Shown one piece after another: positions 269 to 57,798 of a DNA stretch of 64,000 nt (position 1 is the stretch's first letter; every line of letters starts with the position of its first letter). Both the position numbers and the translations under genes were made by a program. Under the pieces are notes generated by a model, which was not told the origin of the DNA, ran no database searches, and worked only from the letters and a program-made list of their open reading frames with translations. Source of the stretch: Antedon mediterranea (Eukaryota; Echinodermata; Crinoidea; Comatulida; Antedonidae); the NCBI RefSeq assembly GCF_964355755.1, contig NC_092675.1, positions 30,466,912 to 30,530,911 of the forward strand. The letters are read 5' to 3'.

Positions 269-292
269 ACTATTAAACGATCGTTTAATAGT
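269..292. repeat. 24-bp perfect palindrome
   Basis: A 12-nt arm (ACTATTAAACGA) is followed directly by its exact reverse complement. It sits beside a direct repeat of TCGTACACGA at about 238-260. No function is assigned; it may be a relic of a transposon end. Confidence 0.6.
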
Positions 293-523
293 GCGAACTA
301 TTGCACGCCATATGACATACAATCGTCCAATCAAATTTCAGGAATTTATATAGGCGTTATATAAAATGTTAATAAATAATAACGCCATTATACTCTTGAA
401 ACTGGAGCTAATTTTAGTGGGACTAAAAGAGTGAACACTTACCTCGCAATGTGTAATCATTTTGTGTTTGGATTGATAGAAGAGCTTCAATGTTCTGTTA
501 AAAACCATCGATAAATATCAAAC

Positions 524-587
524 ATGATAATAATAGTAATAATAAGATTTTTATAGCGCACATACCACTCCAGAGTGCTCAAGGCGC
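524..587 (-). mobile_element. LINE 3' tail of CR1/L2 type
   Basis: On the minus strand it starts GCGCCTTGAGC, runs through GTGCGCTATAAAAATC and ends in a TTATTA-rich tract. This is the usual 3' end of CR1/L2-like non-LTR elements in marine animals. It lies on the same strand and about 240 bp downstream of the LINE reading frame at 831-1637, so it is probably the 3' end of that same copy. A related short tail occurs at 49,563-49,622. Confidence 0.6.
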
Positions 588-830
588 ATTTAAAAATAAA
601 AAAGAAATAAATCATACAAATTCCTGACAAATAAAATGCAATTTCTTTGGAGGGTCCCCATCCGTTGTCGTTCTGTCGCGGTCCCGGACCCCTACCTAGG
701 TGACCAAACAAAGGAGCAGGATACACATTTGCCTTGCCACAGACGACCGGGTGCTCAGAGACAACAACCAAGACAGAGGCACCCCAAAGATAATGCTGGC
801 CAGGAAAAGGTATACAAAACAATTCTAAGT

Positions 831-1637: not shown

Positions 1638-2027
1638 TGTTGTATATTAATCAGACTGTTGTTTTTTTACTTTAAAAATTACATTTTAAGTACTTCATCC
1701 AAATATACACATTTAAAATTGTTAGGCCTAAAATTGTTATTATAGGTTTTGATCGACCTAATTAAGAGGGAGCTTTTCATTTGCGACGATTTACAACCTA
1801 TCAAGAAATCAAGCGAAGAAGCACGTCCTAATACTTTCACATACTAACTATTCACTAGTTTTTATGTCGTCACAAATCAAAAACTCCATAATATTTATTC
1901 ATAATATGCACAACACAAATATTATTTCGATAGTACTTCTATTAGATTCTTCATTCTTATATTTTACTTATTAACATAATTTGATGATATAAGACATTTT
2001 ATTCATAGCAATGTTATGTTACCGTAC

Positions 2028-36600: not shown

Positions 36601-37580
36601 GTTTAGAATCTTTGATTAAACTAGCAAACTATACAAACTAAACTTACCTGTTTTTACCGAATCAAGCATAACAATAATGGAAAAGCCCACACAAACTTAC
36701 CTGTTTTTACCGCATCAAGCATAACAATAATGGAAAAGTTCACACAAACTTACCTGTTTTTACCGCATCAAGCATAACAATAATGGAAAAGCTCACACAA
36801 ACTTACCTGTTTTTACCGCATCAAGCATAACAATAATGGAAAAGCCCACACAAACTTACCTGTTTTTACCGCATCAAGCATAATAATAATGGAAAAGCCC
36901 ACACAAACTTACCTGTTTTTACCGTCTCAAGCATAACAATAATGGAAAAGCCCACACAAACTTACCTGTTTTTACCGCATCAAGCATAACAATAATGGAA
37001 AAGCTCACACAAACTTACCTGTTTATACCGCATCAAGCATAACAATAATGGAAAAGCCCACACAAACTTACCTGTTTTTACCGCATCAAGCATAATAATA
37101 ATAGAAAAGCCCACACAAACTTACCTGTTTTTACCGCATCAAGCATAACAATAATGGAAAAGCTCACACAAACTTACCTGTTTTTACCGCATCAAGCATA
37201 ACAATAATAGAAAAGCCCGCACAAACTTACCTGTTTTTACCGCATCAAGCATAACAATAATGGAAAAGCTCACACAAACTTACCTGTTTATACCGCATCA
37301 AGCATAATAATAATGGAAAAGCCCACACAAACTTACCTGTTTTTACCGCATCAAGCATAACAATAATGGAAAAGCCCACACAAACTTACCTGTTTATACC
37401 GCATCAAGCATAACAATAATAGAAAAGCCCACACAAACTTACCTGTTTTTACCGTATCAAGCATAACAATAATAGAAAAGCCCACACAAACTTACCTGTT
37501 TTTACCGCATCAAGCATAACAATAATGGAAAAGCTCACACAAATAATTCTGAATGACGACGTAGTCCCTAGGGGTGACAT
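15938..37580 (-). CDS. Gene B: SRCR/Tie-like-ectodomain receptor tyrosine phosphatase, complete
   Basis: Exons (high to low): 37496-37580, 35874-36179, 35246-35560, 34611-34925, 33976-34290, 33475-33786, 32985-33290, 32085-32492, 31280-31519, 30866-30997, 29636-29782, 29130-29261, 27701-27847, 27005-27310, 26719-26786, 26407-26632, 25704-26003, 23698-23976, 23372-23592, 23086-23161, 22872-22944, 22362-22426, 21787-22028, 21536-21623, 21218-21291, 20842-20878, 20562-20656, 20313-20435, 19640-19785, 19185-19320, 18773-18922, 18513-18612, 18103-18176, 17576-17713, 17207-17329, 16917-17074, 16378-16513, 15938-16012. All phases agree and give 2,222 residues with a stop. Order: signal peptide, SRCR x6, unnamed domain, Ig, EGF x4, FN3 x5, transmembrane helix, PTP D1, PTP D2. 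Predicted to dephosphorylate phosphotyrosine at the inner membrane face through D1, with D2 regulatory. The ligand is unknown. Confidence 0.9.
18773..21623 (-). CDS. Gene B PTP domain D1 (active-type signature, WVD variant)
   Basis: Eight exons between 21,623 and 18,773. Motifs in order: [18 protein letters not shown] (phosphotyrosine loop), [65 protein letters not shown] (general-acid loop, normally WPD, here WVD with the Asp kept at 19,735-19,737), [13 protein letters not shown] (Cys codon 19,642-19,644, split by a phase-2 intron), and [16 protein letters not shown] (Q-loop). All residues needed for cysteinyl chemistry are present, so I predict activity. The Pro-to-Val change may slow loop closure. 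Confidence 0.88.
20957..21155 (-). mobile_element. Decayed tRNA-type SINE in gene B D1 intron
   Basis: Related, in reverse orientation, to the SINE at 39,054-39,376. Shared blocks are AGCTAGTAATCAGCGCAAAG, ACACCTGGGTGGAG, AAGTATCTTGCCTAAGGATA and AGAGTTGGATT. The tRNA-like head is at the high end. An equivalent copy sits at the same place in gene C (about 44,962-45,162), so the insertion predates the B/C duplication. Confidence 0.7.
21787..22944 (-). CDS. Gene B transmembrane and juxtamembrane exons
   Basis: Exon 22872-22944 encodes the membrane helix ([18 protein letters not shown]) followed by KRR. Exon 22362-22426 encodes [20 protein letters not shown]. Exon 21787-22028 encodes an 80-residue linker rich in Pro, Lys and Ser ([18 protein letters not shown]), ending [14 protein letters not shown]...FQKEFD, the lead-in to D1. 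The PxxP-like repeats could bind SH3 or similar modules; that is inference. Confidence 0.85.
23086..27310 (-). CDS. Gene B five fibronectin III domains
   Basis: FN3-1 is 27005-27310; FN3-2 is split over 26719-26786 and 26407-26632; FN3-3 is 25704-26003; FN3-4 is 23698-23976; FN3-5 is split over 23372-23592 and 23086-23161. Landmarks include [83 protein letters not shown] and [21 protein letters not shown] 1.3-kb hAT-like element lies in the intron between FN3-3 and FN3-4. Confidence 0.88.
24217..25518. mobile_element. hAT-like non-autonomous DNA transposon in gene B
   Basis: The terminal inverted repeat CAGTGGCGTATCCAG starts at 24,217 and its reverse complement ends at 25,518. Flanks are a perfect 8-bp target duplication ATGCCAAT (24,209-24,216 and 25,519-25,526). 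The matching intron of gene C has no element, so this is a clean empty site. The inside has a G-run near the left end and no transposase frame. The 8-bp duplication and CAGTGGCG-type ends point to the hAT superfamily. Confidence 0.85.
27701..31519 (-). CDS. Gene B Ig domain and four EGF domains (Tie-like module)
   Basis: Ig exon 31280-31519 ([17 protein letters not shown]). EGF exons are 30866-30997, 29636-29782, 29130-29261 and 27701-27847. EGF2 here is the least altered: [13 protein letters not shown] followed by [18 protein letters not shown]. In Tie receptors the second EGF has the same CSG(R/Q)EG and LPDPxGCxC pattern. Introns are longer than in A, and the one after EGF3 holds a decayed LINE. 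Confidence 0.87.
28650..28960 (-). mobile_element. Decayed LINE reverse transcriptase fragment in gene B intron
   Basis: On the minus strand one frame reads [20 protein letters not shown] then [18 protein letters not shown]. After a one-base shift another frame reads [15 protein letters not shown]. These match the C-terminal part of Jockey/CR1-group reverse transcriptases, where the motifs occur in this order. The frameshift and an AT-rich stop-filled end show it is old. It lies between EGF3 and EGF4 of gene B. Confidence 0.7.
31656..31720. repeat. Perfect 28-bp-arm inverted repeat
   Basis: Left arm 31,656-31,683 starts TTTGCTCTTATTGACACTTT. Right arm 31,693-31,720 is its exact reverse complement, with a 9-base AT loop. 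It lies in the intron between the unnamed domain and the Ig exon of gene B and has no equivalent in A or C that I can see. It could be a MITE relic or form a strong RNA hairpin. Confidence 0.8.
32085..32492 (-). CDS. Gene B unnamed ectodomain exon
   Basis: 136 codons, phase 1-1. It shares [43 protein letters not shown] and HIPFIIL with the exons at 8853-9221 and 52868-53254, and has an extra acidic stretch in the middle. It is the most diverged of the three copies. A and C match each other better here than either matches B, which supports mosaic ancestry. I do not recognise a named family. Confidence 0.55.
32985..36179 (-). CDS. Gene B SRCR array (six single-exon domains)
   Basis: Exons 35874-36179, 35246-35560, 34611-34925 and 33976-34290 are four near-identical SRCR domains of the [13 protein letters not shown] subtype. 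Their high ends are spaced 619, 635 and 635 bp apart, so exon plus intron was copied as a unit. Exon 33475-33786 is the [12 protein letters not shown] subtype. Exon 32985-33290 is the [22 protein letters not shown] subtype, also present in gene C but not in A. All are phase 1-1, so domain number can change without breaking the frame. Confidence 0.9.
36643..37543. repeat. Signal-exon/splice-donor tandem array of gene B (17 x 53 bp)
   Basis: 901 bp, exactly 17 units of 53 bp, each containing on the minus strand the end of the signal-peptide exon and a GTAAG donor. Unit variants include T instead of C in the CACAC stretch, AGAAAAG versus GGAAAAG, and TTTATACC. There are no 27-bp partial units here, unlike gene A. 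Confidence 0.92.
37496..37580 (-). CDS. Gene B first coding exon: signal peptide
   Basis: 85 bp, phase 1 at its end, starting [10 protein letters not shown] with a hydrophobic core [11 protein letters not shown] and ending DAVKT before CAG|GTAAG. It differs from the gene A exon by only a few residues. It is the start-proximal member of the 53-bp array at 36,643-37,543. Confidence 0.85.
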
Positions 37581-38816: not shown

Positions 38817-41800
38817 TTATTGGAAGTTTCCATAGGTTTCGAACGAATCAAGGTAGTACTGTACCGTCTCGTAGCATGACTTGTATTGCTCCTGTAAAGT
38901 AAACGTAACATTATCTATAGGCCATGTCATTACATAACATAACATTAGATATAGGCCATGTCATTACAAATACATCGTTACCATCAATTGTAAAGTAAAC
39001 GTAACATTAGCTATAGGCCATGTCATTACAAATACATCGTTACCATCAATTATGTGAGGGCGTGTGGTGATGTGTGTTGGACGTTCGACTACTGACCGTT
39101 AGACCGAGGTTCGAATCCAACTCTCGCCGCATTGCTTGTATCCTTAGGCAAGATACTTTACTTACGTTTGCCTCTCTCCACCCAGGTGTATAATTGGGAA
39201 CCCGGTTAGATCAAGACACAACTTTGCGCTGATTACTAGCTGCATATATGGGAGTATGTTTCCATAGGTGTTTGATCAGGAAATGACTGGGATAATAAAA
39301 TGTTCAGCACATTGAGAGCTTGCTTATATAAGAATGAACTATTATTATTATTAGTAGTAGTGTTATTATTATTATAACTGTAAAGTAAACGTAACATTAG
39401 CTATAGGCCATGATATTACAAATACATCGTTACCATCAATTTGATTACATTGCTTCACTATATTTACAAAATTATCATCAACTTCCATTGTTATTATTTT
39501 CGTTGTCATCCATATTAAAATCTTATCATCACGGTAGTCATTTGTCATTTTTATCGTCACATTCCTTTTACAATCCCATGCCATGTTAATGCCTGATGTG
39601 GATTCATAATTTACCATACTAACATTAACAACACTCCCACGCTCCTACATTTACCATCACTGTTAATAAAAGTCTTCATTGATGTCATCACGATGGGAAA
39701 TTTGTTTGTCATCATTCGTCATTAGTATTTAGTAATATTACCTTAGACTTTATCAAAGACGGACAAGTACTTTTAATCAGTTTGATATTCTGAAAGACGT
39801 CAACGATGGCTTCTTCATTAATCATCTGAATGATCGAGTCTACTGCGCAGAAGTATCCACATCGACTCCTGCCATCTCTGTGGGTGAATGCAAAGAACAT
39901 TTATCATAATATTTCAAACCATCAATGCAGTGCATGACTGATGACTGATTTAGCAACATCCCATTTCTAAATGCTTTTGCCGTATCGAAATAGGAAATTA
40001 AACAATATTGTACACAAAGGTCTTTAAATGCGCAAAGTCAACCAATTACACAATTATTTACTACATTATTATGTGGACTCATTACTAATAACAGATATTC
40101 AAAATCTTGTATGCGCACTAAGATTGTTGATAGCGTTACTTATACTATAGTCAAATATCATTCGGCTCCATCCACATTAAAGATCTTTCAGTTGTTGAAG
40201 TAATTTGGCCCGCTGTGTAATAATTATTGAATAGTTTATTTGTTTGTCTTTTTTTATTATTCTTGTTTGACACTTACAAACAATGAACAGCAACGATGTT
40301 GTGTTGATTCATTCGTTTACACTTATCAACATCGGATCGTAGTTGCAAAAAAGATTCCACTGAAGTAGGCTTTCCTGAATTATTAGGCCAATCACAGTAT
40401 TGAAAATGATGTATTTCCCGACGCTTTTGTTTAATCTTGGGAAATAAAAATAATGTTAGAAAATAAAATTTAAAGCAACCAGGCGTAAGAAAATGTTTAA
40501 CATTTACTTTGATAGTTAGATAACACTTAAATAGTAAAGCCAATACGCATACAATCGGTAGGCCTACCTTTGATAAATGCAATGTTCGTTTTACGATACA
40601 ACCATGGTGTTCGCTTGAAGCAAGTTGAACAATAAAGGGGCCGACGATTGTTTGAACATTAAACTCTTGTGGAAAATAAGCACCGATCGTCTCAAAATAT
40701 AAAAATAAATACAATAAATAATATTAAATAAATAAATGTTATTATTCTGGGAAGAATGATAGTTGACATAAAACAACAAACATGATATCATTCCATATAG
40801 AAAGTAATGGTCTTTTGTATGCAAAACTAAGAAGCCAATCACACATCAGACTCCTCCTTTTAACTTAATAAATAAGTAGGCCTACAATTACGGCTACTTC
40901 GTCCTTTGACCTTTATTGATTTAGAAAATAACTTCATTTTTGCAATGCCTTTATAAAAACCTTTTTAAAAATACATGTTTATATTAATTACCTTATCATT
41001 GGTGTCTTCGTTGTTTAACATTACAATGATATGCAAATTATATTCATAAATCAGTCTCCAAAAGTCCGACACTGTGTTTGGCATCGGTGCTTGCGTCACA
41101 ACATACTTATTATCTTGTTGTCCGTAGCCCTATATGATATAACATGATAGGCTCGTATCTGATCAATTATCTTACATTAACAATACTACAGATGATGTTC
41201 AAGACATTTAGGTTATATTTATACATCAACACGCCACAATGTTGTATCACTGTTGGATAAATAAATTGAAGATACAAAAAGTGCTTATTTATGTTGTTAT
41301 TATTATTTATACATTTTCAGGACGTTGAAATATTATTTTTTCCGTGTATAATTTATACATTTACTTACTGTTCATAGTGACCAATATACAACTGAATCCC
41401 AAATCTAAAGTTTATACTGAAATGCATTATATAAATAAAATACATTCTGTAGTCATTAAGTTGGGTCACTGAACTCTTCCATTAAGATATACTTACTTTA
41501 CAAAACGAAGCATTAATATAATCGTTACGATCCCCATCTGTAGATAATAGAAAAGGTATCGCATTGTCCACTGAAATGTAAAATAAAACTGTACAATAAT
41601 TTGCCTTCTTCACCACACACATCCTAAATCCCAGTGGGCTAGATTATGAATTTAATAATCATCATTATTATTCAGCATCAGTTGTAGGCCTAATCCTCAT
41701 CATCATTGTCTTGTTTTTGATCAACCAAATATAATGCAAGTATAGGTTTATCATCATTATCTTCAAGATTATCGACATCACCACTAAGAAATTGAATTAC

Positions 41801-42032
41801 CATTTGTAGACATTTCTTTCTTTTTCAGTCTGTTTTAATTTCAGAAATAATTCGAAAATCAAAAGAAATGTTTTTAAATGTTAATCAATTTGAAATAAAT
41901 AAATATTTAATTGAATTGTATTGGATACGTACACGGTACTACACGTGGATATCTGTTCTTATTGACGTTTGCACACTTAGTACCTATGCAAGTTGCATCA
42001 TGCGATGGAAGCGGTGACAGCGCATCTAGAAC
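38817..42032 (-). CDS. Gene C linker and PTP domain D2 (likely weak or inactive)
   Basis: Exons 41933-42032, 41497-41570, 40992-41129, 40568-40690, 40278-40435, 39742-39877 and 38817-38891. WPN replaces WPD ([13 protein letters not shown]) and the signature is HCLDGRSRCG. The protein differs from the gene B D2 at only a few positions, for example one residue in the 45-residue exon 39742-39877, suggesting recent duplication or gene conversion. The end is [17 protein letters not shown]...NFQ and stop. Confidence 0.87.
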
Positions 42033-42136
42033 CTTTAATTAAAAAAAACAATCAACATTTTTGGGGGAAAAGGGATCACAACATTATTAGGTTATATGCA
42101 TGATATGCATATAACCTCTTGATTCTGTCAAAATCT

Positions 42137-42175
<39 letters not shown>

Positions 42176-45100
42176 TTCTTTCCTTAGCACTATTTGTCCG
42201 TCAATTATCTTGATATCAGTTTCATCTAACTAAGTCAATTTTTCAGAGTATATTCCTTATGGCCAGGAATCGATGTGGTTATGTTTTCACGGTGCGCAAT
42301 CAAACATTACGCGGTCTACGCGCGATTTAACGAAATCACGTTTGTAATCATATCTTCACAAGCATGAATCACTTTTAAACAAAATTTGGTACTCATAAAT
42401 TTCAGGTCATATTTCATCATATAGCAATACAATTACGTGCGTAGCGCATATAACGCATGCGTACGCGCGCTTAAAATGTTCAAAATTGTCAGAATTTATT
42501 TCTTATTATTGTTGGTTTATAAATTAGATTTCTAATTTCAGTTTATTAGTAACCCTTAGTAATATATATTATCCGAATACTGCAGTTGATTGATATATTA
42601 CTCACATTCTGCTGTTCTTGTAATCGTTTTCTTCCAAGTCGACTATTGGTTTCTTTCAATTGATTGAAAGAATTCATGAATGCCCCTGTTGGTATATGAG
42701 TCGGTTCACAAAATAAACTCTCCAAAATAGTCTCGTAAATAAACACATACTGTTCCTAAAATGAACAATTTAGGTTTCCATTTTAATTGTCTACAAACAT
42801 AGAAATAATAAACCTGTATAATATTTCAAAAAAGTCTAAAAACTGAAAAAACAACATACTACTCAAGCCATAGTCGTAAGAATCTAAATCATAAATATAG
42901 AGATCTAGTACAGATATAAAGGCAGTGTGGCATACCTCTGTCGAAGAATATCGATTGATATAGTATAGTATCGTTAGTTGTACAATTACAGTTGTTGACA
43001 TTCCCTTACCTGTGTTTGTACCATATTAAGCCTGTTTTCTCTCATTTCTTTCACAAAGTTGTATACATCGATTTTATCCTTTTCTTCAGCCATGTCCAAC
43101 ATAGCATCAATGGTTATTACTATACCAGTCCGTCCAACGCCATCACTTATAATAACAAAAATCAAATCATTTTACCAGTTAAGGTCACTCTTCCACATTA
43201 ATATTCACTGCAATGCCTTTAATTCTTTTAAATAATACTTTTAACAACGAACTATGACAATGATATGTAATTAGTTTGCCGACAAGTTTTAAAAAATGCG
43301 TAATTTAAACTGAAAGTCTGTTGCCGTGTGTTTTTTTTCTACAAAACTGTCTTATTTTAAATTATTTGGAAATGTTTCATTTGGTAATATTAGCATTCTT
43401 TAAGATAATTATTAGAAAGATAGAAATTAGTGTATTTCCAATCTCTTTAAATGATATACAACTACTTTAAAATAAGTCTTGTCTTTACCTGCAATGAACT
43501 ATCACTGGACCAAGAGATGTTTTTGCATCTTTTATTTTATAAATAAACTCAAGTAGAGGTGCTGGAGATGTAGGAAGATGTATGTCCACCCATGCGGTGA
43601 ATTGGTAATGTCGGACAAATTTCTCTGCTTTGTTCTAATTTGTTAATAATAACATTCAGTCATCTTTAGGTATACCTTCAATTCATTATTTAGTTGGTAC
43701 TAATTCGTGTAATTTACCTTTAGATCAATATACTTACAGCAATATGCAGAATAGTAAGCCTGTCTACTAGCAAACGTTAAGTTTGCAAACACGGCCGAAC
43801 TCGAGGTTTGCGAAGACAAAGGTTTCCTAGTAAAGCCGAGGCTAAACTAGGAAATTTTAAACTGTGAGTTTACTTGTTCACCCATATATTCTGATATACT
43901 ATTTTTACACAACTGTCTGTTATTACCAAAACTGATTTTGACCAAATGTTCATACCATTTTGTCTTCAAAACCAGCCATCAACCTTCACAATATTTAGTG
44001 CTCATAAACGTCAGGTCATATTATGCCTATAACATCATACAATAATTTAAAATACACACGCGCACTGCACTGTCCTCTCCACGATTCTGGGTCTGTTTTA
44101 ACGTGTTACTCCTGGTGGAGGTTGTAACTCTCTCATTTTCTCTTTCTGATTATGTGAACCATTGAAATAGTATCGACTGTTATATGGGTTCTGTTAGATT
44201 TCCGGATTGTATGTATTTTCACGTTGCCGAAACACTCGAGTAGATGAGGTATGGCAACCCCAATTATCACATCCGAAACTGTTACCATAAGACAGAAATA
44301 AAAAAATAAAATACTTACTATTTTCAACCTGAATGTCCTAATGGTGAAATTTCTATTTACATTTTCGTTTACATTCTGAACAAAAATATCACCATATTTA
44401 TTTGTTTCCCCTGCTTCAGGCCAGTACTGTATACATTTCATCTACATAAATAAAAATATACAATAAAACGCATAATATTAATTGGATGTTATAGCTTAAT
44501 AAACTCGTTAATAAGAGCAATAGGTTGCCACTGTGAATAAAGGCAATAGTGAATCATGTGACCTTACCTTATGTTTCTCCACTAGATTTGTAACCATAAC
44601 AATGATATTGCTTTCTTGCCAAACCATTCTCCAAGTATCATTCACGCTTGCTTCATTTGGACCTGTATGTATTTAATGGCATCATTTAATATGTATAACA
44701 TTTGGATCTGTATTTATTTAATGGCATCAAACATTTTTAAATGTATTTTAAATATGTAAAATAGTATGATATCTTAATTTCATTTCTATTCAAATCGGTA
44801 ATTATTCTTGAAATGCATATTTATACATAATAATATTTTTAAAATACCTTGAGATGCAATGTACGCTTTAGGATTGTCGTTAAACTGTAAGATAAATTTT
44901 AAAATAAAATCTTTATTTCATGAATAATCATACTCAAAGACGCTTTAAATAGCATATTATTACCCAGGTCATTTTTTTATCAAACACGTATGGAAACATA
45001 ATCCAATAATACAGCTAGTAATCAGCGCAAAGCTGTGTCTAACCGGCTACCCATTTTATACACCTGGGTGGAGTAAGTAAAGTATCTTGCCTAAGGATAC

Positions 45101-48100
45101 AAGAAATGTAGCAAGAGTTGGATTAGAATCATGATCTCACGATCATTCATCCAACGTCTTATGAAAAATGAGTGATCCAAACTTATTAATAACTTGTTAA
45201 TATATAACAACTTTGTTTTAACCTTGATATATGAAGCGTTAATATAATCGGATTGACCATCATCAATGTCCTTTAGAATCACACGTGAGTGGTTATCTAG
45301 AAGAAAAAGAAAGCCAAATGGTATTACTCAGTAATGTTATCATCACGGGACACGCATTTGACGTATAATAATGATATAAATGTAAGAACAATTATTAAAA
45401 TAACGTTTTATCATAAAATAATAATGTTATATCTAATCTGCAGACCGTAATACTGTTTCGATCTTAATATATTTTTTTTATCAAAATGCACAATTTCACT
45501 TACTGAATTCATATTGTAAAAGTTATAGGTATGATAACTTACACGGTAAGATGTTTCTAAATCTATTCTTATTCGTGTTGTTATACTTATTAGCTTCGGT
45601 GCATGGATATAAAAGTTGGCATGCAATATCCTATGTTTTAAAAGGAGCAAAATGTAATATAAAAAATAAACATTACAGATAATAAATTGTGTTTGTTACA
45701 TTACATGTCATTATAAAAGACTCTAGAACCAACAAATATCGTAAAACTTTAATAAACTCAATTTTACAGATTTTAACCAAGCAACTAAACTCACGTCAAA
45801 CTCCTTTTGAAAGGTTTCAGTTTTGTGGCCTTTTCTTTTGCGGACGTACCCTTGAAGATCGTGCAAACGTACTGACTGATAGCGGGTTTTTAGTTTCGAT
45901 TTTGACACAGATTTCTGTGATGGTATTGGTGTAAGTTTCGGCATAGGGTTTTGACCAGGTTTCAGTGAAGTCATAGGTTTCTGAGTACATTTGATTTTCG
46001 GGGTTGGTGAATCATTTCCAAGTTCATTTTCATCGGATTCTGTAGACAAAATCATTTAATATTTTAAATAATTTTTTTGTAAATCTTACCCATCCTACAA
46101 ATTGTTTCTTCTTTCTTTCAAATTTTTGGCTGATAATAATAATATTGTGCAAAAACATTTTAATACTACTAATATAACTTGCTGTGAGAGCAAATAGCAT
46201 GGTGAAAATTCTCAACGCTGAAATGTAAAACAAACAATATTTATTTAATCGAGTGAATACTTAATTATAGAATAATTATAATTCTAATTTATAGAATACG
46301 GTATAATAGTGAAGTATTTAATTTTGTTTATACATACCTTGTCCGTACGCGTTATATAACACGTTCGGTACAGCAATATTGTCAGTTGTATCGTTAAGTC
46401 TTCTAAAAGTTGTACTGATAGTAAAATACAAGAAATCGATCAAAAACTAGATTCCACATGCATCAAATTTACTCAAATTAAAGTTAGGCTTACGTGGTAG
46501 GTAAAGAATATATTATTGAAATTCGTGGTGACGCAATTATGCACCTAGGTATGCCACATTCAAAATAAGCTCTCTAAACCATCATTGCTATTTCCCATCC
46601 CAGCTCAACAAACTTTTATACATTTTTGATTGTTAATGCATTCATTCATTTAGCCAGACATTTAGCAATATCAAAAATCAAAACATGAATATAAAAAATG
46701 AATTAACTAAATTACTGTAAATTCTTGTCCAAACTAAGAGATTCTCAATGATATAGCTTTTATTAACTTAATGATATACATATATAATGGAACAATAAAA
46801 GATTGTAGTCTACATTATAAACAATACAAATCCTATATTGTCCTACCTTCGTTTCAATATCACAACCAATAAAAGTAGTATCACCAAACACACAGTTACT
46901 AGTCCTGATATTAGTACAACTAAAAGAGAAAAGAAATTATTCTTTATGTCGGTAGATAGCACGACTAATATCAATACTAAGTAAAAACAAACTCTATTAA
47001 AATGAAGAAAAATGATATGAATAAAACAAAATTAACTGTCTTACGTACGTACCTCTAACTTGTGTCTTATATTTTGCGCTTATACCTCCATTGTCAGCAG
47101 AAGTACCCATATCATTACTCGCCACAATCTATAAGCAAAAACAATCAAGCAACAACAATCAGGCAACCCAACTTTATTTTGTAGAAAGGTATATTTTGAG
47201 TGTTGACTAATCAGTTTCAGCAGGAAAATATTGGTAAACCTTTTACTACAAAAAATATACCTTGGTTAACTTGCCTGAATAAATAATGTGAAAGGGTAAA
47301 ACAATTGAACAATTTATTTTTGGTTTAGTATGTTTAAAATAATAACTGACCTCAACAGTATACTCTGTGTTTGCCTTGATACCGTCATCACTCATAAACG
47401 TCGTACTCGTTACTGATCCACTCACGGTTTTGCTAATTTTACCACCTCCTGATGACGTCAGTGTCACTGTATAATTATGTACTGTACAATCATTACTGGT
47501 TGGAGCTTCCCATTCAACTTCAACTGTGTTCTTTCCAGAAGTTACTTTGACATTTGCAGGATCTCCCGGAGCTAGAAAAGTAATAATATGGTGTGTAATA
47601 GGTTCTATTCCATTAGCTATACTATTTTTCAAACAAATAATATATGGCCTGGAATAAAAAAGGAATAAAATACATGTTTACGGTATAGTCCTAGGCCTAG
47701 GCCTATACCGTAAACCGTAAACATGTAAATTAATAAATTAATATGCATAAGTAACGGCTTTTACCTATAAATCGTTAATGAAGACATTTTAAATAAATAA
47801 AGTTATTTAAACTTAATTCCTGATATATTAATGTAGTCTTACCTACAGTGCCACTTTGAATAATATCAGATGTTTTTGGTCCTTCTAGATTTTGGTTCTT
47901 TCCATAAACTTCAAAAGTATATACATTACATGGCTTTATATTTTCCTCTATTTTCACTATGTTAGACTTTGTAGTACTTCTTTTTATAACAACATTATTA
48001 TTATCTTTCAATGAATATTCATACACCATGTCACCATTACGACTACCACACGGAATCTCCAACCACGATATAGTCAAAGAATACGGCTCTTGATCAGACA

Positions 48101-51100
48101 TTGTCATTATCTCAGTCGCTTGATCAGGAGCTTTTATAAGAAATAAAGGAGAAACTATTATTAATAATCGTAACTTACAGACATAATTTATATCACATTT
48201 CCTCTGACCACATTCCTGCAAATCCTATGACAAGTAGACAGAATGCGATATTTCTAAAAGACCAGTTGAACTAAAGTAAGATCATATTTCTTCTGCACAA
48301 GTTATTTTAGAATCAAAACACACTATGAATTAATAGTTGCACTTATAGTAATGCACACAGATATGATAATAACCTACAGAAATAGGAATATAGACTAGTA
48401 AACTGTGATATAGTGTATATGCTCTACTTTGTATTTAAATTATCATCAATCATGTGACGAAAGATGTATTCTATGGAACATATTAACACTACTTAGTAAT
48501 ATATTGTTAATAAAAGTACAGTATTCATTTTTTGCCTACCACTTTCTTCTGTTTGTACTGTATGTTCATCTGATGCTGCTCCAGCTACGTCATTAGACAC
48601 CGCAGTAACTTGGATTCGATATCGAGAATACGCACTCAGATTTGATAAGATGTATGAAGCAGTTTGAACGGGACCTTTATTGATGACTTCATTACTAGTG
48701 TTATCACACATATCAAATTGTATTAGTTGATAAGTTACGTTATACATAACAGGACAGTTTCCATATGTCACTTCATTCCAAGATAAAGAAATATAATCGG
48801 GCCCAGAAATATCAGAAAGTCCATTAACTTTGCTTGGAACTAAGAAATACATAACAATTATAATGTTAGTAAAACAATGCCAAACTTCCGATATTATATT
48901 CAACGATTGTAAAGTCTACCGTAGATTAATATATTACAGTATATAACAGAAATAAAGAAATAGAAAATAATACAATAAATTGCAAAAATCTCTTGGATGC
49001 TAAATATAAAGATGCAACATATCAAGCTGTATATAATCATTAGGAGAAAGAACTTTTTTTTTCTCGTAGCGATAACGGCTTGACAGACATTTCGTTGGTC
49101 TTTATTAGGCAAATTGTCGTCACATATATCTCTACACAATTTGTGTTAGATTCTGACAAAACAATTAGATTAGATGTTATTAAAAACTAATAACAAACAA
49201 AATTGATAAACACACAGTGCAATCAAAAGGTCAATACTCAAAAAACTAGTTATGTTTAACCATAGAGATATTATAGTTCACTATAATATCTCTATGGTTT
49301 AACATTGTTTTACCAGTTTTAGTTGTTTCATTATTACTCCATGGTCCATTGAATCCAGCATTGTTCTCTATTTGTACTTTACATGTATACCACGTGCACG
49401 CTGTTAACCCGCCAATCGTAGCTGATGTAACATCACTAGCAGTGACAGTTATAGATTCTGAATCTGACTCACAATATACATCGTAATGAAAACTGTTGCA
49501 CTGTATTTTTTCTGTATCATTATCTATTTCCTGTAGAAAAAATCTATTTATGATTATAATTAAGATAATATAAGATAATAAGATTTATAAAGCGCGCTCC
49601 ACAAAGTGCTCAAGGCGCTCATAGTTATATTCAAAGAAGAAAATACAAAACACCAACCTGCCATGCAACTGTTAATGAAGAACTGGATGGATAAACTGCA
49701 ATAATATGTGGAGAAACCAATGGCTCTATAAAAAAAATTATTAAATTAAGAAAATATTCCCTCTTTTGCATTTGAGTGTAAAAATACAAAATAGCAAAAA
49801 TGTAAACTTAGGTTAATTATTCTAGTCACAATTATTGTTCTGTCAAAGGTTTCTATGCTTTTTTTCAGATAATGAATATGAATGGTTAATTGATGTTTAT
49901 CAATATATTGATCCATTGTTCTCACTTGAACATATCGTTGATTCTGTCACAACTTGACTGTCTGGTCCACAAACATCTTGTCCGCCGATGTTCTTACATA
50001 CACGAACTTTGACCTCAATCGTTCGATTTGGCGGTAACCCAGTAATTGTAAAGACGTCATCATTTGTTGTGATTGTTGTAAATGTTGATTCATCTTCACT
50101 TTTATATAACACTTGATAAGATGAAGCTGGTCCAGTTCCATAATCCTCACCAAAAGTCCAATCATACACGATAATCATATTGGTGGCTGTGACGTCAGTA
50201 CTATTAACTTGCTTGAATAAATACGGCAAAGCTAAGTCAAAAGAAAAAAAATATATTGCATTATACAAGAGCGTATCAAATTATTGATTGGTCAAAATCT
50301 CGAATAATTGGCAATTATTTAGGTTGTGTCCTTGTAGAGAGCGTGTTTGTTCTGTTTTGTAGGATATTTTGCAAATTTATTAATAACTAACCTATCTGGC
50401 AGTCGTTACCGCCCCATCCATCTTCACAGTTTCCACTATCACAGTAACCCGTATCTTTATCACATGATGATGACGTTTTACAATGGCAACTATACTGACA
50501 AAATTCACCAAACTGTCTATCGGGGCATGTCACATGATCTTAAGGAAAAAAACAGATAAAATACACACAAAAAATAAAAATAACAAAATACACCTTGTAA
50601 CACACGTCCACAATGAGATCCACAAGTGTTACTGTTCCATTTTTAATAATAATAACATTATAGAATAACGCATAACTACTAAATAAACATTTTAATTTAC
50701 CAAGACATTTATTTCCATCAAATCCATAGTTACATGTAGCTCCACTTCGACATCCTTTTTTGTAATCACAGTAATATGAACTGCAGTGGCATCCTTGATT
50801 ACAACCTGCGCCGTAGTTTGTCCCTGTACATGCTATTTTTGTGAAAAGTATACCAATTTGAACAGTTGGATTTTTTTTATTTATTATTTTATATTTTTTT
50901 CTGCAAAAAAGTTAGCTGAACGCGTTTTTTCAGGCCATTAATGTAACAGCTAATAAAATAACTTCTGTTTTTTTCTTTTTTTTTCTCATACGCATCCAAC
51001 AGCGAGTGAATCGTCAATTACAGGATGGATAAACTATTTAATACTTTATACTAAATCTCATTTAAGGCTTAGGAAGTGGAGTTCAAAGAGTCGTGAGTTA

Positions 51101-54100
51101 CAACCCTGGCACTAGGTCAGGATTGAATCCCGGACCTTAGGATTGGAAGGCAAGCACGTTAACCACCAAGCTACAGCTCTTAAATGTATTATTGGTAAAT
51201 AAAAGTACATTTCTTTCTTCTTGATATATGTTGATCCGTTTAAGATATTGCATGCTTGTAATTTGTTTTAATGTTGAGTGATTTTTAATAGCACTGTACT
51301 ACTGATACCTTCTGTGAATACTACATTGTGAAGAACTAGAAAAGATCGTTTAAACTTACCTTCATCACATGTATTACCATGGAATCCTGCCGCACACGCA
51401 CAGCCAACTGGATCTGGAGGACACAGTAAACTCTGACAAGGAGACGAGCAATAAATACTACATGACCGACCATAATACCTGGTACTACATCCTATAATAG
51501 AATCATTTTCAAAAATAACAAATGTAACAATTTGTTTTTTGTTTAATATAGTACGTTATATTATTTACAATTGCAACAAATTCCTAATATCATATCGTTT
51601 TATTATAATTAGGTGTATTATTTAATGTCAGTTATCCTGACTTTTCAATGCTCAAGTAATTTTGCAATTTTATATATTTTATTCGAACTTTATCTTTTAC
51701 TTCTTGTTTGTTTGACGATACTTGTGTAAGTGGGCTAAGCCTATATATTTTTTTCGTAAAATTACATTAACACATAATACGTATTTTGTCTTTTTGTGAA
51801 TCACAAACTAAAATGAAATATATGTAAACTTTAAACTTACTTTAGATTACAATTTTACTTTCTGTTCGGAAGTTTAGCCACATCATTAATGACTTTGCCT
51901 CGACTAGTACAGTAACCAAGCAGGACCTTAGACAGTTTGAGAAACTTAACAAGAAGGTCGCAAAAGCAGACGCGGATATCAATTTCTTAAAGAATTGCAA
52001 AACGTTCGGCGTTTTTCCCAGATTTATTACAATTAAATTAGAATAATTAATTCGTTTTAAAATCTACCTGTAATCAAAATAGAATACAGTAATTACCTTC
52101 TGAGCAGTCAACACCTTTAAATCCTGCTGGACAGATGCATAACCCAGTCACGTGGTCACATATTCCTCCATTATAACAAACTGGACAATCGCCATTACAC
52201 TCTGATCCATGTTTTCTTGTAGGACAACCTATTGATTATCAACTATTATTTATTGACAACAAAAGTATTGTCCAGATTTAGCCTTTTTTGGTTTTTAATT
52301 TTTTTAATGGATTTGTAAAAGGAAACACATGTTTATTTGCCAACTGTATTAAATAACGTATACGTAATAATTCACCTCTGACAATCAATCTCATGATTGC
52401 ATGTTTTCCGTTTCTATCTTTGTAACATTCGTATATTCCAGCATCACTTGTTCTGACATTGTTAATAGTCACTGTATTTTTACCATTGCCATGTGGTATG
52501 CTAATGTTGTTTAACTTCCATTTTAATTCTGACGTATTTATTGTGGTACTGACTTGTAAAGTCACGTGATCACCAATACTGGCTGTAATAGATCGTTGGA
52601 GTGGAGTGACGTCAGCTATGGATTAAATAATGTTTAAAACTTATATGTGCAGATTAAAGCATTCTGGAGAAACAATGGCAATATACGATTGTATGTGGTT
52701 ATTTAAAATGATTTACAATTATACTTATACTCTTGAGGTAATTTGTAATTATTTCTGTTACAGGTATAGGTGTGCAACCTACTTAATTAATTATTATTAT
52801 ATTACGATTCAACTACTAAATAACCAATCAATAAATGCTAAATGGAATAACTATGTATATATCTCACCAGTTTTAGACAATATTATAAAAGGTATGTGTT
52901 GAGATCTTGAATCTTTAGTTGCGGAGGCAAAGAAAGCACCGACCTTTTGAAGGCCTGAACCATCATCGATACTGACGATGAGGGCAGTACGGTCACTTCC
53001 AGTGTATTGTTCAACTGTTGATCCTGTAGGGAACATAGTACCAGAAGGTACAGGTGTGCTTCCACTTGTATAATCATCACTCCACATCACAGGTCTCCCA
53101 TACAACCCAGTTCCTGTGTCACTTTCTCTTCCAAGTATTATATCAGTAGTTATATCAGGAAAAGTGGTATAACCCCCAAACATGGTTGATTCTATCGTAG
53201 AATCAATTTCCACGGTTGGATCTGGACACATAACGGTTAGATCAAAGATTCCATCTAAAACCAATAATTAATTATTAGTGAATTATTTTATTAATTTTTT
53301 TGTAAAATGATGCTTAAATATTTTGTTCAAATTAAAGATAGAAATTATTAAATTATACATAATAGAAAAGTGGTTGCCGTCCCGTAACCTCATTACTACT
53401 CGTGATTCAGTGTTTTAATTTCTCTGAAGAAAGATGAAAGAATATTAGTAAATTATTTTATTGAAGTTGTTATAAAAGTAATACGTATGCGCAGAGACTA
53501 CCTATATGTTGGAATAGTAAAAACGTTAAAATAGTGTAACATTAGCGTATTCTATGTTATATACTTACCATGCATAGAACATCTAACACCAGCATCCTCA
53601 TTATGACCACAGTTGTGAATTCCAATACCATTTGATGGACATTGATTCAGACCAGTCTCTGTACCAACACATGCAACATTATCCAGCAAAATAGCACCAG
53701 ATCCCTGACCAAAATAGGCACCAGAAAACGCTTTACTAATGCCTGTGTACGACAAAGAATTGCAGACAACGGTTGCATCTTGAACACCCCACGAATCATC
53801 ACAGATTGTCCCCCATTTACCCTGGTAAAATATCTCGACACGACCCTCTAAAGCTGTGTTACCTCCAACGAGACGAACTGCAAGATATATTTAACACTTA
53901 AGTAATAAAACCTCAAGTAGTTAATAACATTGCCCATATTTACTTATACAAACAACTTAACATTCCTGCTTATTAGATTTTTAAGCGCGGATTGACGACA
54001 AACTAAATAGATTTTAATTCCTTCTTCTTCAGTAAGGTCTTGAATATTAGAAGATTGGTGTAAAGAAAAATGTACTACTACTTTAGTTATGTTTTCGTTA

Positions 54101-57100
54101 ATGGCGATTTGATGAAAATGAGCCATATCAAAACACAAATATCTATCATTATGTAGACATAATTACTGTTTTGATCTTAACTTCTAGCACACTTTCGATA
54201 AGTTATCAGTGACGTGTTCTGAGGGAAGTAAAACTTGCACTGGACACAACAATTTTTAACGTCTTGGAACAAATATTTGATTTTATCTGAATTATTAAAG
54301 AGAGAAGGCACATTCTGTATTGTATTGCACTCATATACATATATTGCATAATAAAAAACATGACGTGCCTAAACACATTACTCCTAAATACCTTTAGCAC
54401 AATTTGGACCAATTAAACAGTCTGTCCTATGGTAAATTAAGATAAACATTTCAACAAATCCTTACCCGCCATAGAACATCGAACACCAGCATCCTCAGTA
54501 TGACCGCAGTTATGAGTTCCGATATTCCTTGACTGACATTGATTCAGACCAGTCTCTGTGCCAACACATGCAACGTCATCCAGCAAAATGGCACCAGATC
54601 CCTGACCGAAATATGCACGAGAAAACGCTTCACTAATGCCTGTATACGACAAAGAATTGCAGACAACGGTGGCATCTTGAACACCCCACGAATCGTCACA
54701 GATTGTCCCCCATTTACCCTGGTAAAATATCTCGACACGACCCTCTAAAGCTGTGGTACCTCCAACAAGACGAACTGCAAGATAATATGCAACACTTATA
54801 GTACAATATCGCCCTTATTTACTTATACAAAACAACTCATTATCCTATTTCTAAGCTCTATAAATAATGTTTTAAACAAACAAAAAATCTTCAGTGTAAA
54901 TTATGAATATGCGTTATCACTATATTTATTTCAGTTGAATTAAAGCTATGGTAACGAAGAGAAGAGTGAAAATACCACGAATATAAAATTGGCCTATTCA
55001 TTATTAAGTTTCTCTCCTTATTATCTAGGTACGTCAAATTCTGACCAAACTTATCCAATTATGAATGTAAAAATGTTATTAGAAGCATCATCTATATTCA
55101 TATAATATCGCCCAAAAGTTGTTACTATCTGTGAAACCGAGCTTTTAATTTATCTTTATCCTATCGGCTATGTTAATTCTGTTTTTCACTAGGCGAAAAT
55201 TCGCGCGAATTGAAAACGTTGACTAATGCGTATGCGTATTCATATTATTATTGTTATTATTATTATTATTATTATTGGTATAGTATTTTGTGACGCGATA
55301 AATTGCGCAACTAATCAGAACTCATGAATGCTCGATCCATACAAATTATTCGCCTAGTGGAAAATTGTTGTAATTTGTTTAATCATTTTTGTTTTATTAT
55401 CATAACATGTGATGGTAATGTGAATTTATGATAACGCACCTGGAATTCCACATCGAACACCTGCGTCCTCGCTATGATTACAATTATGCTTCCCCCACAC
55501 GTTATGGTCACACGCCGCTAAATTAGTCTCTTGTCCACCACACTCAACTTCATCAAGATGTATTCTTCCACTGCCAGCTCCAAAAATCCCTCCCTTTGTA
55601 GCCTCTATTGCTTTACTGAAGCCAAGCTGCCGACAGACTACATCGGCGTCAAAGCGGTCCCAGTTGTCATCGCATACTGTTCCCCATTCTTTATAATAGT
55701 AGTATTCGATACGACCTTCAAATGAGTTTAAGCCGTCAACTAAACGAACTGTAATATAGAAATGTATTTTAATTTTATTAAAGAGATCCCCTGAATATCA
55801 GTTAACTCACTGGGCCGATATAAACTGGAAGGGTTACCCTCTTTAAAGATGGTTGAATTTTGTAAAAAATAAAAAATGTAAGAAATAATAATAAATAAAT
55901 TATTGTTGTCTATTTGTTTTTATTTATTTCGGCAATAAAGAAAATCATTACAATAAACAAAAACAAGAAATAATTTAATTTAATTAATCAGTGTTGAGAA
56001 CTCTTCTTAAGAATAAAACAATACAATATATACAATTACTTAAATATGAAATAAGAGAGATACATATAACTCATAAAAACAATTATTCAAATTAACAAGA
56101 ACATTATTATGAAAAGTTAACCTCGTGAAAGGAACATAGTATAAGTTGTTTTGAAGAAAGAACATTCTAATTCATACAATCTAAAGAAGAATATTGAAAA
56201 CAAACAGTAGAATTCCAAATGTGGTCTAAATTGATGTCACAGAATCTATTTTTAGTTAGGATTACCACCGTCAAGTCATTGGTTTTCTTTATTTCATGAA
56301 TCAAAATGTTTTCAACATCAATACTCCAAATACTATAATGAATTAAAAGCACAGTGCTGGGTTTCCAAGAATAAATATTTGTAAAACCAGTATTACCAAC
56401 CTATTGGCGTACAGTAAGCTCCGGCATCATTGTTGTGTCCGCACGATGACGTCAGAACACTATGGCCACATAGATCCAATCGTGACTCATTACCAGTACA
56501 TTGGACACTAGTGAAGTGGATCGGACCGACTCCTTGACCAAATTCAGATCCAGTCACGGCAGAAAGAGCATCCGGGTAGTCTAATTGGCGACAGACGACT
56601 TTTGCATCGTTCTGGTCCCACCCGTTATGGCAAACCGTACCCCATTGACCGTCCTTAAATACTTCAACACGACCCTCACTTTCTAGGTAGCCTCCTACCA
56701 ATCTAAGTGTAACTGGAGAGAAAAATTAAAATGCTTAAATACTAGCCAAGTAGCACATCATCAAGGAAGATTATTTCAATTTATTTCGATTTTATGATTC
56801 AGGAGGCTAGTAGATTATCGTAAATGCCTTCATCATTATCTCAGATTAAAATGAAAGACTGTTATATCTGTATCTTATAATAATTTAAATAAACATCAAA
56901 ATACGTGCACTACACTGTACACACTTTTCATGTGAAACAATAATCTTCAGACGTTATGTTTGGTTTTGAATAGTTTAACACTAGCCATATAATATAAAGA
57001 ACACAAATGCATTAGTTATGAAATAAATACAGTAGTATGATCTTACAATTTCTGCAAATCGCACCAGCATCTTCTTTGTGACTGCAACTATGCACATTCA

Positions 57101-57798
57101 AACCACGGTTGCCACAATCAAGGATATTGCTCTCTGATCCAGAACACGCTACCTGATCAAGCAGGATGGGTGAGGCAGCATTTCCAGGACCATATGCGGC
57201 ATAACTTGGAGCTCCAGTGGCTTTTACATATCCTAGCTGACGGCATACTACTGTCGCGTCCTGCATATCCCAACCATCGTCACAAATCGTTCCCCATTCG
57301 CCGTTATAATAGAGTTCAACGCGTCCCTCATTTTGGCTTGGACCACCAACGAGACGAATCTCTTAATGAACAAAAAAAAATGTGTTTTTTTTTAATTTTG
57401 GCATAATTTTATTTTATTTTTACTTATAAATATAGGGGAAGAGGATGAGGCAGGAAACAATATCCTTACATTATTATTATTATTTCTTTTCTCATATTTG
57501 TTTGATGGCCATCCCAAAATTAGTCGTTACGGCATTACGAAAATCTACCTGTCTTATTTTTATTTTAATAATACTAATAATTTAAACAAAAACAGCAAAA
57601 GTTTCTTTACAGGTACAGTTTACAGTGTTTTTATTTTTAAATGATAAATAAGTAATAAATAAATGAAATGTGGGTGTACCAATTCTAGGCTATGGCTGCT
57701 AGTTTTGAAATACAATGCAGATTAAACTTACCTGTTTTTACCGTATCAAGCATAACAATCATGAAAAAGATCACATAACTAATTCCTAATTGTGACAT
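38817..57798 (-). CDS. Gene C: SRCR/Tie-like-ectodomain receptor tyrosine phosphatase, complete
   Basis: Exons (high to low): 57732-57798, 57047-57361, 56401-56712, 55440-55748, 54466-54774, 53569-53877, 52868-53254, 52376-52615, 52097-52228, 51360-51491, 50701-50832, 50392-50538, 49926-50231, 49658-49725, 49314-49530, 48540-48839, 47843-48130, 47351-47571, 47053-47128, 46847-46919, 46338-46402, 45795-46039, 45543-45630, 45223-45296, 44848-44884, 44568-44662, 44319-44441, 43489-43634, 43010-43145, 42606-42755, 41933-42032, 41497-41570, 40992-41129, 40568-40690, 40278-40435, 39742-39877, 38817-38891. The total is 6,303 bp, i.e. 2,100 residues plus stop. Order: signal peptide, SRCR x5, unnamed domain, Ig, EGF x4, FN3 x5, transmembrane helix, PTP D1, D2. 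It has one copy of the signal-exon unit, so it may represent the pre-expansion 5' end. Confidence 0.9.
39054..39376 (+). mobile_element. tRNA-type SINE in last intron of gene C
   Basis: The head contains a polymerase III B box GGTTCGAATCC at 39,108-39,118. The body has CCTTAGGCAAGATACTTTAC and AGCGCTGATTACTAGCTGC-like blocks, and the tail is GTTCAGCACATTGAGAGC followed by an ATT-rich microsatellite. Gene B lacks it at the same spot, reading CAATTGTAAAG without interruption. Around it a local unit (GTAAAGTAAACGTAACATTA...) is present several times, so the host intron also expanded. Confidence 0.8.
42087..42497. mobile_element. About 0.4-kb insertion in gene C, absent from gene B
   Basis: Gene B reads ACATTATTTCTTATT straight through near 18,660, while gene C is interrupted here. 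The insert starts with a perfect hairpin (AGGTTATATGCAT-GAT-ATGCATATAACCT) and an ATTT microsatellite (42,136-42,177), then a CpG-containing stretch with GCGGTCTACGCGCG. A related fragment (TCATAAACGTCAGGTCATAT) lies in another C-specific insert at about 43,890-44,055. The class is unknown. Confidence 0.6.
42606..45630 (-). CDS. Gene C PTP domain D1 (active-type signature, WVD variant)
   Basis: Eight exons between 45,630 and 42,606 with the same lengths as in gene B. Motifs: [45 protein letters not shown] (Asp at 43,584-43,586), [13 protein letters not shown] (Cys codon 43,491-43,493) and [16 protein letters not shown]. Predicted catalytic domain of the receptor. Both B and C carry WVD, so the change is fixed in this branch and is not a sequencing error. 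Confidence 0.88.
44962..45162 (-). mobile_element. Decayed tRNA-type SINE in gene C D1 intron
   Basis: Positional and sequence equivalent of the copy at 20,957-21,155 in gene B, with the same blocks (AGCTAGTAATCAGCGCAAAG, ACACCTGGGTGGAG). Its presence in both genes dates the insertion before their duplication. Confidence 0.7.
45795..46919 (-). CDS. Gene C transmembrane and juxtamembrane exons
   Basis: Exon 46847-46919 encodes the membrane helix, starting [11 protein letters not shown]. Exon 46338-46402 encodes [20 protein letters not shown]. Exon 45795-46039 encodes the Pro/Lys-rich linker ([18 protein letters not shown]) and the D1 lead-in. It is nearly the same as gene B except for a few substitutions and one codon more in the linker. 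Confidence 0.85.
47053..50231 (-). CDS. Gene C five fibronectin III domains
   Basis: FN3-1 49926-50231, FN3-2 in two exons (49658-49725, 49314-49530), FN3-3 48540-48839, FN3-4 47843-48130, FN3-5 in two exons (47351-47571, 47053-47128). They correspond one to one with gene B in exon structure and phase. The two split domains are the ones missing from gene A. Confidence 0.88.
49258..49299. repeat. Perfect 20-bp-arm inverted repeat in FN3-2 intron edge of gene C
   Basis: Arms AACCATAGAGATATTATAGT (49,258-49,277) and its reverse complement (49,280-49,299) with a 2-base loop. It ends about 15 bp below the donor of exon 49314-49530, so in pre-mRNA the hairpin would form just after a 5' splice site. 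The gene B intron lacks it. Confidence 0.8.
49563..49622 (-). mobile_element. Short LINE/SINE 3' tail
   Basis: On the minus strand GCGCCTTGAGCACTTTGTGG followed by GCGCGCTTTATAAATC and a TTA-rich end: the same tail class as at 524-587. Only about 60 bp are left, inserted between the two exons of FN3-2 of gene C. Gene B lacks it. Confidence 0.6.
50392..52615 (-). CDS. Gene C Ig domain and four EGF domains (Tie-like module)
   Basis: Ig exon 52376-52615 ([17 protein letters not shown]). EGF exons 52097-52228, 51360-51491, 50701-50832 and 50392-50538. EGF2 carries [18 protein letters not shown]. The exon lengths (132, 132, 132, 147) and phase-1 borders match gene B except that EGF2 is 147 bp there. 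Introns hold a tRNA-like SINE and a + strand retroelement fragment. Confidence 0.87.
51070..51180 (-). mobile_element. tRNA-like SINE head in gene C intron
   Basis: On the minus strand TAGCTTGGTGGTTAACGTGC resembles a tRNA A box and GGGATTCAATCC a B box, about 25 bases apart. The cloverleaf is not intact, so this is a SINE head and not a tRNA gene. It lies between EGF2 and EGF3 of gene C. Confidence 0.55.
51861..52046 (+). mobile_element. Retroelement-like protein fragment, possibly Penelope-like N-terminus
   Basis: On the strand opposite to the genes an open frame of about 61 codons reads [12 protein letters not shown]... then [20 protein letters not shown], then [20 protein letters not shown] and a stop. 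The pattern, a lysine-rich helix followed by FLxxCxxxxxxPRF, resembles the start of Penelope-like and related retroelement polyproteins. That assignment is from memory of the pattern and is tentative. It lies in the intron between EGF1 and EGF2 of gene C. Confidence 0.4.
52868..53254 (-). CDS. Gene C unnamed ectodomain exon
   Basis: 129 codons, phase 1-1. It keeps [43 protein letters not shown] and HIPFIIL, and matches the gene A exon more closely than the gene B one. It occupies the position of Ig domain 1 of Tie receptors but lacks a Cys pair. No named domain is recognised. Confidence 0.55.
53569..57361 (-). CDS. Gene C SRCR array (five single-exon domains)
   Basis: Exon 57047-57361 is the [13 protein letters not shown] subtype, 56401-56712 the [12 protein letters not shown] subtype, 55440-55748 the [17 protein letters not shown] subtype. 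Exons 54466-54774 and 53569-53877 are two recent copies of the TGLNQCxSxxIGxHNCGH subtype, spaced 897 bp. Gene C therefore holds all four SRCR subtypes found in the cluster, whereas A and B each lack one. Confidence 0.9.
57732..57798 (-). CDS. Gene C first coding exon: signal peptide
   Basis: 67 bp encoding [20 protein letters not shown] then KT, ending phase 1 at CAG|GTAAG. It is homologous to the first exons of A and B but lacks the tandem array downstream. The start is the only Met with a hydrophobic core directly after it and agrees with the paralogues. Confidence 0.82.

Follow-up and report, generated by a model that had tools for sequence, protein, structure and literature searches.

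To our knowledge, the Tie ectodomain has so far been described in one or two receptor kinases per animal, of which it forms the outer part. The receptor phosphatase VE-PTP (PTPRB), of the R3 group, is linked to Tie2. Members of this group have a single protein tyrosine phosphatase (PTP) domain (PMC5336234). Here, we analyzed a 64,000-nucleotide stretch of the genome of the crinoid Antedon mediterranea (354 Mb, 18 contigs), to which we refer as the window (C6:30466912-30530911, where C6 is contig NC_092675.1). It contains three related genes, A, B and C, all on the minus strand. An initial annotation had interpreted B and C as a lineage-specific chimera in which a Tie-type ectodomain is joined to tandem PTP domains (D1 and D2). 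Our analysis suggests that the three genes probably belong to a tandem-arrayed, shuffling receptor family with a Tie-derived ectodomain and a phosphatase arm. Tens of tandem genes would here be built on the Tie ectodomain, and at no fewer than 26 loci the kinase end would be swapped for a phosphatase.

Gene C extends from its start codon at window position 57798 to its stop codon at 38817. The gene model, which was assembled from anchored exons with consensus splice sites, comprises 37 exons in a single open frame of 2080 residues, and its junctions are all GT-AG and in phase. The encoded protein starts with a signal peptide, followed by five SRCR domains, a domain that we call X, an Ig domain, EGF1-4, five FN3 domains, one membrane helix, a juxtamembrane segment, PTP D1 and PTP D2. 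Its features are as follows:

57732..57798, minus strand: exon 1, signal peptide (22 residues); donor score 8.9, with a counterpart exon in A and B.
53569..57361, minus strand: five SRCR exons (57361-57047, 56712-56401, 55748-55440, 54774-54466 and 53877-53569), all phase 1-1.
52868..53254, minus strand: domain X, at the position that Ig1 has in Tie; taken by itself, it matches nothing in Pfam or PDB.
52376..52615, minus strand: Ig domain, aligned with Tie2 Ig2.
50392..52228, minus strand: EGF1-EGF4 (52228-52097, 51491-51360, 50832-50701 and 50538-50392); EGF2 carries an 11-residue motif.
47053..50231, minus strand: five FN3 domains in seven exons, from the gene model and Pfam.
46847..46919, minus strand: transmembrane helix exon, from the gene model.
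46090..46094, minus strand: putative micro-exon of 5 bases, which would keep the frame from the helix to the juxtamembrane exon.
45795..46039, minus strand: juxtamembrane exon, from the gene model.
43010..45630, minus strand: PTP D1; P-loop (10 residues) intact, WPD loop reading WVDIHLP.
38817..42755, minus strand: PTP D2 and the preceding segment; WPN loop, HCLDGRSR P-loop, last exon (38891-38817) containing the stop codon.

Pfam recovered five SRCR domains (PF00530, 6.4e-149), which place the protein in the SRCR superfamily, together with five FN3 domains (1.6e-38) and two Y_phosphatase domains (7.9e-135); the Ig and EGF matches fall under the curated cut-offs. The gene model and these matches bear out the order of Ig, four EGF, FN3 and PTP D1-D2 that had been proposed for B and C, as well as the five to six SRCR domains in front of it (five in C, six in B). 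The exons of gene C are also phase-consistent, as had been stated, with one link made through the putative micro-exon, and the 11-residue pattern of the second EGF domain is present in C and A and, in another 11-residue version, in B. No cytoplasmic tyrosine kinase is present in gene C, where PTP D1-D2 takes its place; one membrane helix followed by D1 and D2 is the layout of tandem receptor-type PTPs (RPTPs). Three features went beyond the initial annotation, namely domain X, gene A as a third copy, and the change from WPD to WVD in D1 of both C and B.

We compared the X-Ig-EGF part of gene C (390 residues) with PDB sequences using phmmer. Three Tie2 (TEK) sequences came first (7e-32 to 1.5e-31), in alignments that span Ig2 and EGF1-3, and the next unrelated match was contactin-1 (3.5e-6). 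In a tree of EGF1-EGF2 (22 rows and 92 columns: 15 family pairs, the genome's own Tie, human Tie2 and five MEGF pairs), the family and Tie split from the MEGF-type EGFs at 95/96. Two of the 19 inner branches are well supported, and the outgroup is of one kind, formed by five overlapping EGF pairs of a single MEGF-like frame, two of them long-branched. The EGF block had been proposed to be Tie-related, and grouping with a non-Tie family was the outcome that would have spoken against it; both the Tie2 matches and the tree agree with the proposal. At the level of sequence, the Ig-EGF part of the family is Tie-related.

Domain X accompanies this block across the genome: each of its 20 matches (23 of 23 candidates scored) is followed on the same strand by a Tie-type EGF1 match no more than 10 kb downstream. 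We considered X as a homologue of Tie Ig1, a candidate backed by a weak phmmer overlap and by its position. Pfam gave no match for X of B and C, a PDB profile search returned nothing usable, hhalign gave a probability of 0.6% against the genome's Ig1-like domains, and the AlphaFold prediction (mean pLDDT, the predicted local distance difference test score, of 44) was too poor for use. This candidate was not retained.

The combination is not restricted to the window. Among the matches listed for a Tie-EGF query of the genome (169 in all), we counted at least 92 Tie-type EGF1 matches, which lie in tandem clusters on several contigs; matches to EGF2 or EGF3 alone were dropped, as was every row on C2, where the matches belong to long frames with many EGF domains (MEGF-like). 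For 35 of the 92, the same strand carries a PTP exon no more than 25 kb downstream, a zone that covers 0.2% of the genome strands (Pfam PTP search, 150 of 278 candidates scored and 150 of 153 matches used). We also searched with the D1 P-loop (77 of 77 candidates scored) and took 39 P-loop exons from 69 matches, with the P-loop covered and E ≤0.005; at least two of these, outside the family, resemble D2. For 26 of the 39, a Tie-type EGF1 precedes the P-loop exon on the same strand within 30 kb (at 5.9-19.2 kb), and no two of them share one. When both PTP lists are combined, 38 of the 92 EGF1 matches have a PTP exon. The open frame, the phases and this repeated same-strand spacing argue for joined genes. 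The chimera first seen in B and C is no isolated case: its family comprises no fewer than 26 Tie-EGF/PTP loci.

The phosphatase part points to tandem RPTPs. The D1-D2 region of gene C matched PTPRA across its full length (387 bits, 1.7e-114), and the single-domain entries followed with PTPRK at 240, PTPRT at 230, PTPRA at 230 and VE-PTP/PTPRB at 205 bits. The initial annotation had brought in VE-PTP as a comparison. The tandem D1-D2 arrangement it described is confirmed, and it sets gene C, with two PTP domains, apart from the single-domain R3 layout; the phosphatase itself is a better match to PTPRA, PTPRK and PTPRS than to VE-PTP. A tree of D1 (24 rows) was built without gene A of the window, L020, L032, L033 and L038. 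In it, human PTPRA, human PTPRS and six other RPTP rows of this genome form one branch (98/93). The 12 family rows fall outside this branch, as do four other rows of this genome (L027, L028, L029 and L035); L007 and L039 of the family are nearest to it, at weak support (65/27). The family label needs three changes on this tree. The D1 tree does not separate one fusion origin from several; its starred branches appear compatible with one.

We read the catalytic motifs in 15 of the 26 family D1s. Both WPD and CX5R are kept in nine (L007, L012, L017, L018, L019, L021, L036, L037 and L038), and L020 keeps the P-loop, its WPD exon lying outside the stretch taken. The removal of phosphotyrosine, which had been suggested for B and C, is uncertain for these two copies, where the WPD proline is lost, although the nine D1s above retain the catalytic motifs. 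L036, a neighbor in the same cluster, carries WPDMDVP and HCSAGVGRTG, and for this reason the change in B and C looks local.

Several observations weigh against the reading of a receptor family with a phosphatase arm. D1 of B and C keeps CX5R within its 10-residue P-loop and has WVDIHLP in place of the WPD loop, and because of this replacement it may be weak. Three of the 15 D1s are degenerate, with WPG and no HC in gene A, a lost CX5R arginine in L039 and a lost cysteine in L040, and these three look inactive. Among 200 bootstrap D1 trees, there is none in which a branch sets the family apart from all other rows. In the lists used, no PTP exon lies in reach of 54 of the 92 EGF1 matches, in part because of the share of Pfam PTP candidates scored. 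In gene C, the link between the membrane helix and the juxtamembrane exon depends on the predicted 5-base micro-exon (46094-46090); gene B holds the identical five bases with flanking splice sites. Lastly, the ectodomain groups showed no evidence of positive selection in the exon comparison of A, B and C.

This same comparison revealed how the three genes are related. The other two genes of the window are as follows:

15938..37580, minus strand: gene B, order as in C with six SRCR domains; PTP exons 97% identical to C in protein.
1..14728, minus strand: gene A, order as in C with four SRCR domains; degenerate D1, and later D2 exons that run on left of the window.

Between C and B, the PTP exons have a synonymous divergence (dS) of 0.024, the X-Ig-EGF exons one of 0.66, and the DNA, introns included, aligns at 82-96% from FN5 onward. 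Between C and A, the X-Ig-EGF exons have a dS of 0.34, and the pairable PTP exons are 35% identical (a rough value). Likewise, EGF2 is 93% identical between C and A and 63% between C and B. Since C and B are near-identical in the PTP part but diverged in X-Ig-EGF, and C and A are closer in X-Ig-EGF than in the PTP part, gene C is by its exon comparisons a mosaic, as are A and B. The ectodomain ratio of nonsynonymous to synonymous change (dN/dS) is 0.29-0.38 for C/B and 0.36-0.63 for C/A; the C/A signal peptide gave 3.3, over 22 codons, which is too short to weigh. Each exon was paired with its best match. Not all SRCR pairs are real counterparts (several are not), which makes the SRCR sums rough, and some A exons have no partner or a clearly wrong one, which makes the A sums beyond FN1 rough.

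The SRCR array is not family-wide: among 150 SRCR matches scored of 387 candidates, SRCR domains lie upstream of a Tie-type EGF1 solely at A (four), B (six) and C (five). The nearest other SRCR domain in this set is on contig C1 and is 87% identical to SRCR4 of gene C, which suggests that the array of the window was recently captured from another SRCR gene. Clusters of SRCR exons at C1:13.88-13.93 and C1:5.32 Mb, in which identity to this SRCR4 reaches 87%, could be its source.

Two other features were observed in the genes of the window. A 53-base tandem repeat is present in A (13088-14691, 30.2 copies) and B (36640-37543, 17.1 copies), and its unit was matched once in the exon region of C; it overlaps the last part of the signal-peptide exon, splice donor included, to which it is also similar, and may supply many decoy donors. 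The last intron of B and C contains a frame (16097-16324 and 39471-39688), about 84-94% alike, which is one frame in B and two in C.

Our model proposes that A, B and C would be type I membrane receptors whose ectodomain descended from the Tie Ig-EGF block. The rod of scavenger-type and Tie-type modules would sense a surface ligand, be it on other cells, matrix or microbes, and clustering would shift the phosphatase domains toward or away from phosphotyrosine substrates. Inside the cell, the tandem phosphatase would lower phosphotyrosine signals, with D1 as the catalytic enzyme and D2 as its regulator, so that the PTP members would be the part of the family that turns signals down. The altered WPD loop of B and C may make D1 a slow enzyme or a phosphotyrosine binder, with reduced activity or binding being likely. 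Beyond the receptor itself, we favor a recognition repertoire, which we infer from the tandem clusters, the shuffling and the two kinds of inner end.

A tentative extension of this model, compatible with it, is that the Tie ectodomain has given rise to a combinatorial repertoire of paired receptors, some inhibitory and others signal-receiving, which would serve immune recognition of microbes or self/non-self recognition. Its outer modules would be SRCR, X, lectin-like domains and duplicated Tie blocks, and its inner ends would be tandem phosphatases, tails with tyrosine motifs and, elsewhere, related kinases. The PTP members would be inhibitory, and the short tails would serve as targets of kinases or phosphatases. 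The 92 listed EGF1 matches in tandem clusters and the exon exchange between A, B and C fit this possibility, as do the Ig receptor families of Botryllus bearing immunoreceptor tyrosine-based inhibitory motifs (ITIMs), described in PMC12065747. The loci without a phosphatase also bear on it. At five ectodomain places (L003/L004/L016, L005, L006, L010 and L013), the stretch read contains no PTP exon that convincingly belongs to the family; the one weak PTP match, at L004, is on the opposite strand. Short tails containing tyrosines are found at three of the five: L004 and L005 have a membrane segment followed by a tyrosine-containing frame, and L006 has such frames after a candidate membrane segment (hydropathy 2.0). 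Two of the three tails carry ITIM-like motifs (IFYLNV, TTYDEI, TDYQSL and SQYEDI). Against this extension, the motif enrichment is weak (shuffle P of 0.024, 0.053 and 1.0), the tails were read from open frames and not from spliced models, and L010 and L013 have no clear tail in the stretch read. L013 (C8:15.79 Mb) has two Tie-type EGF blocks, of which the second includes an Ig domain, and these are followed by frames that by eye are C-type-lectin-like.

It is rather unlikely that the PTP members are developmental antagonists of Tie signaling, which would share Tie ligands and damp Tie-type kinases. The common ancestry of the ectodomains would suit such a role, as would the presence in this genome of three Tie-type kinase loci (C6:15.10, 4.28 and 27.49 Mb; Tie-kinase query, 150 of 172 candidates scored), but the gene number, the addition of SRCR domains and the divergence of the copies suit a repertoire better than a single pathway. 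None of the three loci is within 40 kb of a family EGF1. The canonical Tie of this genome (C6:15.07-15.11 Mb, with its kinase at 15.10 Mb) has Ig1 (PF10430, 23.5 bits, just under the cut-off of 25), Ig2 and three EGF domains with CLHDPYGCSC in the second, then more exons that by eye are Ig-like and FN3-like, and after these a membrane segment and the exons of the kinase; its partial kinase has four PDB matches at E ≤1e-40, all of them Tie2. The 92 do not include its EGF1, so the EGF query misses diverged Tie ectodomains. Proximity to PF07714 kinase matches (133 of 771 candidates scored; 0 of the 92 EGF1 near 124 kinase positions) was not relied on, as that list missed the Tie kinase. Separately, clusters of tyrosine-kinase-like sequences, mostly with one exon per domain, were observed at C9:20.88-20.97, C10:17.37-17.38, C10:20.23-20.33 and C8:6.42-6.43 Mb; they are unlike the many-exon Tie kinase and are possibly retrocopied families.

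It is improbable, too, that A, B and C are decaying copies of a formerly working receptor. Gene A lacks the catalytic HC and has a reverse-transcriptase-like minus-strand frame (831-1646, labeled by eye) amid its D2 exons, and the WVD of B and C could be read in the same way; however, the B exons with a match in C are open, no stop interrupts C, and the C/B ectodomain dN/dS of 0.29-0.38 argues against decay. That Tie/SRCR ectodomain genes merely lie beside RPTP genes without being spliced to them is very improbable: one junction does depend on the micro-exon, but no stop separates the parts of gene C, the phases fit, the model has one membrane helix, and the spacing recurs at 26 loci.

The shuffling receptor family with a phosphatase arm would, if expressed, offer a natural experiment in the rewiring of receptors and be a candidate for a recognition system. 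We found no paper on a family of Tie-ectodomain/phosphatase receptors in the open-licence PMC literature; one may exist elsewhere.

How does this family compare with described receptors? The FcoR allorecognition receptors of Botryllus, whose tails carry ITIM or hemITAM (hemi-immunoreceptor tyrosine-based activation motif) sequences, are likewise a clustered family with tyrosine-motif tails; they differ from A-C in their Ig and sushi ectodomains, and the available part of the paper names no Tie EGF block or PTP domain (PMC12065747). In the sponge A. queenslandica, SRCR proteins include 14 with PK_Tyr_Ser-Thr (PMC10855680). They share with gene C the joining of SRCR to a signaling domain, which in the sponge is a kinase and not a phosphatase; the word phosphatase does not occur in the main text of that paper. 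VE-PTP resembles gene C in having an FN3 stalk and a phosphotyrosine phosphatase, but it is the weaker match, with 205 bits for D1 compared with 230-240 for PTPRA, PTPRT and PTPRK. The tandem RPTPs (PTPRA, the LAR group and the PTPRK group) have the same single membrane helix and D1-D2, with an altered WPD loop in D2, whereas the ectodomain of gene C is built of SRCR, X, Ig, EGF and FN3, and the family D1 rows fall outside the PTPRA/PTPRS branch. Finally, the Tie/TEK kinases (human Tie2 and the Tie of this genome) share the order of Ig, EGF repeats and FN3, with PDP-x-GC (human) or DPYGC (own genome) in EGF2. Compared with them, gene C has a tandem PTP and not a kinase, X at the place of Ig1, four EGF domains as opposed to three, no Ig domain between EGF and FN3, and an SRCR array in front.
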